Below are positions 39,401 to 42,400 of a stretch of 64,000 nucleotides of DNA, one piece after another. The notes under the pieces were generated by a model. It had not been told where the DNA came from. It worked only from the letters and a program-made list of their open reading frames with translations, and did not search any database. Every line of letters starts with the position of its first letter. The stretch's first letter is position 1. This DNA is from Albula goreensis (Eukaryota > Chordata > Actinopteri > Albuliformes > Albulidae), in contig CM040764.1 in the NCBI GenBank assembly GCA_022829145.1, positions 15,971,670-16,035,669 on the forward strand, read 5' to 3'. A program made the translations under genes and the position numbers.

Positions 39401-42400
39401 ATGTTCTCTGAAGAATTATAGATAATTGTGTAACTATTTCACCTATTCCATTTTAGCTAGGTCCTTTGTTTAAAAAAATGTGACTGCCACCCAGTTTGTT
39501 TCATCACCATCCATTCAGCCTTCAGTGCTGGTAGGTTAATATGCGTTTCATCTGCTTATAGAGTGGGAATGTCAGAAATTTTGCATTACCCACCGACTAA
39601 CAGATTTTACAACTGAATATTTCATTAAAGCCACAGTGGCAGAGTGCATTGCACTAGGGTTAAAAAGGCCAACTTGGGATTTTGAACAGTCAACCTTCTA
39701 ATCTCTGCCCCCCTCAGTAACCTCAACACCACACTTAATTTCATTTCTGCTCATCTCAGAGTGTTCAAAATCAGCATCAGTTTTTGTGAGTATACATTTG
39801 ATTGTGTGTATATAGCCTATATACAAAGTATGTATATCCAAAAATGAATGTGTATGCACATGTATATATGTTTGTGTGTGCGTGTGTGTATGGGTACATA
39901 CATTTTTCCCCCTTCATTCCACAGCTACCTTAGCGATATAGGCCGCATATCTGGGTCAGGGTACATCCCCACCCAGCAGGATGTGCTGCGGGTTCGAGTG
40001 CCCACTACCGGCATCATTGAGTACCCCTTTGACCTGGAGAATATAATCTTCAGGTACTGGTGCAGAATTCCACTTCTGCTGCCGCAGCTGCCATCGTCGT
40101 CATCGTCATCACTGCTGTCCCTGTCGCCTTACAACTGCCCTACCCACCCCCCCCTCCCCACAATAGCCCTGTCTCTGAGACTACATGCTCCCCCCCCAAA
40201 ATGAGTTCAGCAATCAGGCCTCACCTTGAGCTCCTCATCATCCTGTACAAGGTCCTCCCTGAAGAACTCTCAGGCATGACTATGAAGTTGGAATCATAAA
40301 ACCTACTCTTCCTTTACCTTGTAAAAGCGTTTGCTGTAAATTGGCTTTGAGGAATTGTACCAAATGCAATTCTTAAGAGATAGGTTGATGCTTAAGACGT
40401 AGGATTAAAAAGGATCAAAAATTTGAATTGAAGAGTGTGGTTGCTTGTAATTGGAGGCATTGGGTATAACGTTCATTGTGAAACATCATTGATCACAACA
40501 TCTATACTGCTGGTTTAATCCAAAGCACCTTTCTGAAATTATGCTAGACAAATTGGCTGCATTTTCCAACATCAATAAATCTTACTTTCAGTTCAGGATG
40601 AATGGCACAGACAATATGTATGTCAATCATTTAGATGTTGTTTGCCTTGCTTTATAGTCATGTGACAAATATATTAAAGTAGTTTAAAAAAACAAAATCC
40701 AAGAAACTCACTTAAAGTCTCGGAGAGGTGCTATTGTGGGTGGGTTCAGTGCAAACTTTCTGAGAAATGCTCAGGAGTGGAGGTGATGGCTGGTGGAGGG
40801 TTTGGAAAAAGGGGCCCACTCCCCGCATTTCTCAGAAAACGTAAGAAATGGTACGGCCCTCTGAAATGCCTCTGTACTTGTGGGATGGACCGGTCCACTA
40901 GCTTCAGAGGAGGAGGGGTGAGGGTGGGAGTGGTTGAGGGAATTTGCTAACTGCTGTCATGCTTCAAATTTTTGTTGTTCCTGTATCTCCCCTTTCTTTA
41001 GCTATCTAAGCGATCTGGATCGTATCGCCGAATCGTCCTATCTGCCGACCCAACAGGATGTTCTTAGGGTGCGCATCCCTACCACGGGGATTATTGAGTA
41101 CCCTTTCGACTTGCAAAGCATCATTTTCAGGTAGATGATGCCAAGAATTACTGACTTCAGTACTGAGTTTTTTGTTTTAGTTTTTTTAATTTTCATTTCA
41201 ACTACATATATTCAAACCTGAGTATGTGCATACATAAATGTGTTAGATACATTACCTAATGTTGTACATGAGGTCTAACTATATGAATTACTGACCATTT
41301 TGGAAACTCCAGTATATGTGGTCTTGAACCGGAAAGTTTTTCTGATTGGAATCAAGTCCTTCGCAGACAAGCTGAAGCGAATAAAACTGATTCTTCCTTT
41401 TTGTGCCACTTTGTAAGCAACCCTCTTGATTGTGGAATTTCTATTGAATCCCAATGATAAATCACGTTTTTCTCCCTCTCCTATCGCCTTTGAAAGCCGT
41501 AATCTCTTTATTTCTCTCCGATGATCCTTGAACACTTTTCTTCCAGTCTCAGATAGGGATGTTACAAGGAAGTTAGATGGCTGTTGGCTCTAATCGTTGT
41601 AAAACAAGCCACGCTTACTTGCAATAGTACGTTTACTCATGCATGCACCACCTCTTGCATTTGGGCGTTACAGAAGCAAGTTTAACCATACTCAAAGACA
41701 AATAAGGTTTTAATTGGCTTGAGTAGTCAAATGTTTGCAAACACATCAGAAGGCATGTCTGCTTGAAGTACAATGAGATCTTTACAGTCCTGTGCGTTTG
41801 CCCGCACGACCACAGTATTACTGCCCTAAACATTTACCCCTCATTTCAGAGGAAATGGTGGAATTGAGCCATCATTTGGCCTAGCCGTGTCTCATTAGGG
41901 AAAAGATTCTTAAAGATTGGGGCTTAAAATGAAATACGAAATGCTGTTCAGTAGTATGTAGTTGGACCATCTCTGTTCACCATAAAAGAATGCAGGTATT
42001 CATTTCACCCTAAAGGACCCCCGCACTGTCAGGAGTACAGATGCCACTTGAGTAACCTGTGAATTACATGACACTGAGGATACCTGTCGGCACAGCAGGC
42101 TAAATTGGGATGACATCACCTTATGAAAGAGTCCTGATTTCCCTCTGTGACGTCATTAGAGCCAACTCCGCGGGGACCTGGCCTAGAGACGAATTGCCCT
42201 TTTGAACCATGCTTGTCTCTTCAACAAGCAGAGTGAAGCTAACACAAAACGTGTTCATAGTTTTGATTTTATTTTTTATTATTTCGTTCATTTATTTATT
42301 TATTTACCTGCCTCCTCCCCCTCCTGCCAAGTTGTGAGTAGGGGCGAGAGAGAGAGAAGGAGGTTTTTTTTTTTCCCATCTTTCTCTCCCTCTGCTCATC

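Follow-up and report, generated by a model that had tools for sequence, protein, structure and literature searches.

How can one gna11 gene of Albula goreensis carry two complete fourth exons, and does it make two proteins with them? We addressed this question in a window of 64,000 nucleotides (the whole stretch of DNA analysed) on contig C24 of a 932-Mb assembly in 208 contigs. We conclude that this gna11 probably holds two alternative exons 4 of ancient origin, of which an mRNA would normally include one or the other, yielding two Galpha-11 proteins. The case for the pair is read from the sequence: both exons are intact, their donors are weak, the pair is retained in both gna11 genes of this genome, the adjoining introns are conserved, and skipping both exons creates a stop codon.

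Gene structure and products

The gene lies on the forward strand, with the coding part of exon 1 at 9339..9474, exon 2 at 36368..36552, and exon 3 at 36756..36910, whose last letters are the TA of the Tyr159 codon. Next come two homologous exons in tandem, alike in length and phase: exon 4A (39925..40053), ending in ENIIF as in tetrapod GNA11, and exon 4B (41002..41130), ending in QSIIF and carrying Ile184. Exon 5 (45757..45886), exon 6 (46469..46622), and exon 7 including the stop codon (47763..47953) complete the gene, and all splice junctions are GT-AG. The preliminary description had placed two 129-bp exons here in identical phase, each completing a 359-residue protein, and its coordinates, lengths, phase, and products proved exact. 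It was also right that both exons encode switch I with the catalytic Arg183.

Both forms match the G-alpha domain (Pfam PF00503, E values of 4.7e-137 and 1.8e-137), and they have the marks of Galpha-q/11: Arg183 and Thr186 in switch I, Gln209, a length of 359 residues, and the C-terminal KEYNLV. The best PDB match is 9p87, an entry named subunit alpha-11 (species not shown), with which isoform A aligns without gaps over residues 1-359. Judged outside exon 4, the gene is GNA11 rather than GNAQ, falling in a starred group of nine teleost GNA11 rows (99/94); its neighbour, a gna15-like gene, agrees with this.

A second gna11 gene with the same pair

A second gna11 gene on contig C13 has the same two exons in the same order, A at 18828394-18828522 and B at 18829474-18829602, separated by 951 bp compared to 948 bp in the window gene. 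In the genome search, 4A matches its C13 counterpart at an E value of 5.1e-39 and 4B at 6.6e-37, which excludes chance. A search of the 22 kb 5' of exon 2 of the C13 gene (upstream of 18822093) did not reveal its exon 1; since intron 1 of the window gene spans 27 kb, this exon probably lies further out. Both gna11 genes have a gna15-like gene upstream on the opposite strand, and therefore both probably descend from one gene that was doubled in the teleost genome duplication. The gna15-like Galpha gene of the window (1549-3499, minus strand) stands head to head with gna11, likewise on C13; PMC5896119 gives the GNA11-GNA15 order as head-to-tail in all species it investigated.

Among the Galpha loci located in this genome, the duplicated exon was seen in these two genes only. 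A protein search gave 42 Galpha matches, sorted by hand into 20 exon-4-like, 17 exon-5-like, and 5 longer ones. Among the 17 Galpha loci with this exon structure, 15 have a single exon 4 and both gna11 genes have two, a count made by positional pairing of matches that could overlook a poorly matching second exon in a remote Galpha gene. The gnaq gene and the adjoining gna14 on contig C4 have one exon 4 each within 39.6 kb, and contig C19 has one exon-4-like match without an exon 5 match.

Splice signals and intron conservation

The preliminary description credited both exons with good donors, which is incorrect: in both gna11 genes, the 4A and 4B donors lack G at +5. The bases after GT are ACTG for 4A in both genes and, for 4B, AGAT in the window and AGAA on C13. 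Constitutive donors read AAGT, AAGA, AAGT, GAGC, and GAGA in the window (n = 5) and AAGC, AAGC, GCGT, and GAGT among the four seen on C13, with G at +5 in 9/9. Weakness of this kind is expected in the donors of regulated exons.

Conservation of the adjoining introns points the same way. We compared 120-base flanks between the two gna11 genes, leaving out 3 bases beside acceptors and 6 beside donors, against 200 dinucleotide shuffles. All four A/B flanks are conserved, in contrast to none of the nine constitutive flanks of exons 2, 3, 5, 6, and 7 (z from -1.5 to 0.9). Upstream of 4A, a TG-rich block with the acceptor (39849..39924) matches the C13 gene (flank z 6.7), a score that is the least clean because of the TG-richness. 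The donor GTACTG and the block 3' of 4A (40054..40081) form the weakest flank (z 3.4), whose score was reached by 2/200 shuffles. The block 5' of 4B (40946..41001) has the highest score (z 13.9); it contains TGCTGTCATGCTT in both genes and, roughly 52 nt ahead of the exon, a CTAAC that is absent from C13. The donor GTAGAT and a short block 3' of 4B (41131..41142) follow with z 5.6. Thus, 4A and 4B combine conserved flanking introns with weak donors, as regulated exons do.

Beyond these flanks, a conserved intronic element of 101 bp (42428..42528) lies 1.3 kb past 4B on the same strand, with 84% identity to C13:18831187-18831287. A whole-genome DNA search, which gives lower bounds, found only these two places and no third copy, and Rfam gave no match at the gathering threshold in 36000-48000, this element included. 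Six-frame reading of both copies gave no convincing shared exon, and the element was set aside as a hidden exon; that reading is still conceivable, since it holds a conserved GTAAGT and TTTTATTTTAG. YGCY motifs are dense 3' of A in the two genes (7 and 8 in 150 nt, compared to 0-6 in other flanks), which is too weak to name a splicing factor.

We propose that RNA-binding proteins on the conserved intronic blocks would make the choice between 4A and 4B tissue dependent, and that mRNAs with neither exon would be destroyed.

One exon, the other, or both

Skipping both exons yields a TAG stop at the exon 3/5 junction, because the TA at the end of exon 3 is then followed by the G that opens exon 5. 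Inclusion of both, however, keeps the frame open over 402 residues. The term "mutually exclusive" in the preliminary description is therefore plausible: tandem exons of equal length and phase and the stop on skipping agree with it, but the A+B frame is open and 402-residue models are annotated for numerous fish and arthropods. A device that enforced strict exclusion would hardly be a short intron, as the A-B intron has 948 bp. Both exons have GT donors, and these are unlike U12 donors. Base pairing within the RNA gained no support in a crude two-sequence comparison without shuffle control, in which the strongest duplexes among conserved blocks were not the same in one gna11 gene as in the other.

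Regular inclusion of both exons, giving a 402-residue Galpha with two switch I segments either as a regular third product or as a regulated dead product, is unlikely. We took 156 distinct database proteins from the best 120 of 2699, 3275, and 3206 matches: by the pattern used, one exon 4 copy appears in 99, two copies in 55, more than two in 1, and no copy in 1. The copies lie exactly 43 residues apart in 46 of the 55 two-copy models, that is, in 46/156 best-match proteins, which we sorted by hand into 31 vertebrate and 15 arthropod ones. In all 31 vertebrate models of this best-match set, the A-like copy precedes the B-like one (order and kinds judged by eye). At the joint of A and B, the open frame reads Ser where Arg would otherwise stand, and database models show this too. 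The copy pattern is strict (the 402-residue model P0019 matched it just once), and fused or damaged models occur among the 156. However, all these two-copy proteins are annotation models. A variant with a 43-residue insertion is reported from Anopheles, yet it was taken for a premature transcript whose product might disturb the catalytic pocket, and this form was not detected in Lygus (PMC4553527).

It is far less probable that one exon 4 is a relic, rarely or never spliced and kept by chance. As this reading would have it, identity between the two gna11 genes is just 67% over the first 36 bases of 4A, and neither exon has a strong donor; but two genes of this genome and distant fish lineages alike have both exons intact, and the introns flanking A and B are conserved while the constitutive ones are not. 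An assembly artefact can be practically dismissed. The preliminary description had allowed for a collapse of two loci into one, an objection that fails because 4A and 4B differ at 42/129 bases (67% identity) and the pair recurs at near-equal spacing on C13. Alternative use of 4A and 4B thus remains the preferred reading.

Differences between the two predicted products

The two exon 4 peptides differ at 9/42 residues (A to B: I164L, G165D, S168A, G169E, G171S, I173L, V184I, E197Q, and N198S), and five of these changes, G171S, I173L, V184I, E197Q, and N198S, are common to both gna11 genes. The differences are confined to residues 164-198, in the lead into linker 2 (164-173), at residue 184, and at 197-198. 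Between the two gna11 genes, both exons are constrained in protein, more weakly in A (pN 0.084 vs pS 0.226, ratio about 0.37) than in B (pN 0.031 vs pS 0.472, about 0.07). As for synonymous codons, A and B share 10 of 33, compared to 15.3 expected by random codon choice (P 0.038). We do not claim avoidance of shared codons, as the four A/B pairings reached P values of 0.013-0.065 within a set of 21 comparisons.

Residue 184 adjoins the catalytic Arg183 in switch I and belongs to the YM/FR pocket (PMC6463727). V184I may do little, because V184M alone hardly altered the FR sensitivity of Gq (PMC6463727). Residues 197-198 directly precede Val199, which, with Phe201, belongs to the receptor ICL2 pocket (PMC8027608). 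We expect slight differences in how the two proteins would release GDP, dock to receptors, or bind inhibitors. From these positions, we infer that receptor docking and nucleotide release would be adjusted modestly, with no change of signalling class.

Relation to known systems

Duplication of exon 4 in fish gna11 is already known. The preliminary description knew of no vertebrate case, but Lokits et al. 2018 reported exon 4 duplicated in both GNA11 and GNAQ of gar and coelacanth and, in teleosts, in GNA11; they called it alternatively spliced, and dated it before 2R (PMC5896119). Their exons 4.1 and 4.2 are the same tandem pair, of the same exon in the same gene, with alternative use proposed, and medaka, stickleback, and pufferfish have it in both gna11 copies, as here (PMC5896119). 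The Albula exons agree with that pair in being two tandem copies with peptides of both vertebrate types. Flanking intron conservation, frame analysis, and assignment of tetrapod exons do not figure in the exon section of that paper, and its tree omits tetrapod exons (PMC5896119). By title and abstract, none of the papers listed in our searches was a further vertebrate work on a duplicated exon 4. What we add is the pair kept in the C13 gna11, the conservation of its flanks, the 101-bp element, the frame logic, and the grouping of exon 4 peptides.

The preliminary description also mentioned alternative exons in insect Gq (gene Galpha49B). This was right in substance, as alternative homologous exons are described (PMC4553527); the same exon is duplicated, with copies 43 residues apart in the 15 arthropod models among the 156 best matches, although insect Gq alternates further exons too (PMC4553527). 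The mutually exclusive exons 7-8 of GNAO are likewise duplicated alternative exons in a Galpha gene, but they are other exons, encode receptor-coupling regions, and arose by a separate duplication (PMC5896119).

The search for a second exon 4 in other fish, suggested at the outset, found the pair among the best matches in models of further fish and in GNAQ models from sharks and rays. The latter, which bear the name G(q) (P0012-P0018 and P0144-P0146), carry both exon 4 types; since the word "shark" is absent from the main text of PMC5896119, they may extend the known range.

History of the exon 4 pair

We built an exon 4 tree from 65 peptides over 42 columns, with 22 pairs (2 from this genome and 20 of the 31 vertebrate models) and chosen single rows, leaving out near-copies and damaged models. 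Side B holds 22/22 B copies, 8 single GNAQ rows (5 from tetrapods, 3 from teleosts), and 2 GNA11-like rows from cartilaginous fish. Side A holds 22/22 A copies, 5 tetrapod GNA11 rows, lamprey, hagfish, amphioxus, and two gna14 rows. The split between the sides, with the window's 4A and 4B on opposite ones, has 93/91, below the star. Exon 4 peptides are thus grouped by type and not by gene, tetrapod GNAQ being B-like and tetrapod GNA11 A-like; the human GNA11 row (P0073) is A, ending in ENIIF, and the GNAQ rows include none named human. Outside exon 4, a tree of 32 rows separates the proteins by gene, GNAQ vs GNA11 (86/68, unstarred; 100% of 200 bootstrap trees). Forcing a gene-wise grouping on exon 4 costs 13.8 log units and is not rejected (p 0.141).

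From this pattern, we see about an even chance that the exon 4 difference between tetrapod, and so human, Galpha-q and Galpha-11 predates both genes, having begun as alternative exons followed by reciprocal loss, with GNAQ keeping B, GNA11 keeping A, fish gna11 keeping both, and the element at 42428-42528 belonging to the ancient switch. The exon 4 protein of this genome's gnaq is closer to B (86%) than to A (74%). Its DNA is evenly similar to both (75% to A, 74% to B; third positions 0.57 for A vs 0.48 for B), and a DNA search of the genome found it with the A query and not with the B query, which counts against reciprocal loss. The pre-2R origin of the duplication proposed in PMC5896119 is supported but not proven by these sequences. 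The arthropod and vertebrate pairs fit either one old event or two: a tree that joins the arthropod B copies to the vertebrate B group is not rejected (p-AU 0.24), nor is keeping the arthropod copies together (0.732). A first test of arthropod B with vertebrate B gave p 0.0018 and was discarded as unfair, because the GNAQ and GNA11-like rows inside the B group had been left out.

Significance

In mammals, a high degree of redundancy is ascribed to Galpha-q and Galpha-11 (PMC5896119). A fish gene able to make both exon 4 types would offer a natural test of the role of this segment, all else being equal. It also bears on gene targeting, where a guide against exon 4 in a gene with two copies would hit one product only. 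A zebrafish study targeted exon 4 of gnaq and gna11b and exon 3 of gna11a (PMC12045641); its results are not in question, because zebrafish gna11b has a single exon 4 (PMC5896119). If reciprocal loss is true, a splice choice would have turned into two separate genes.
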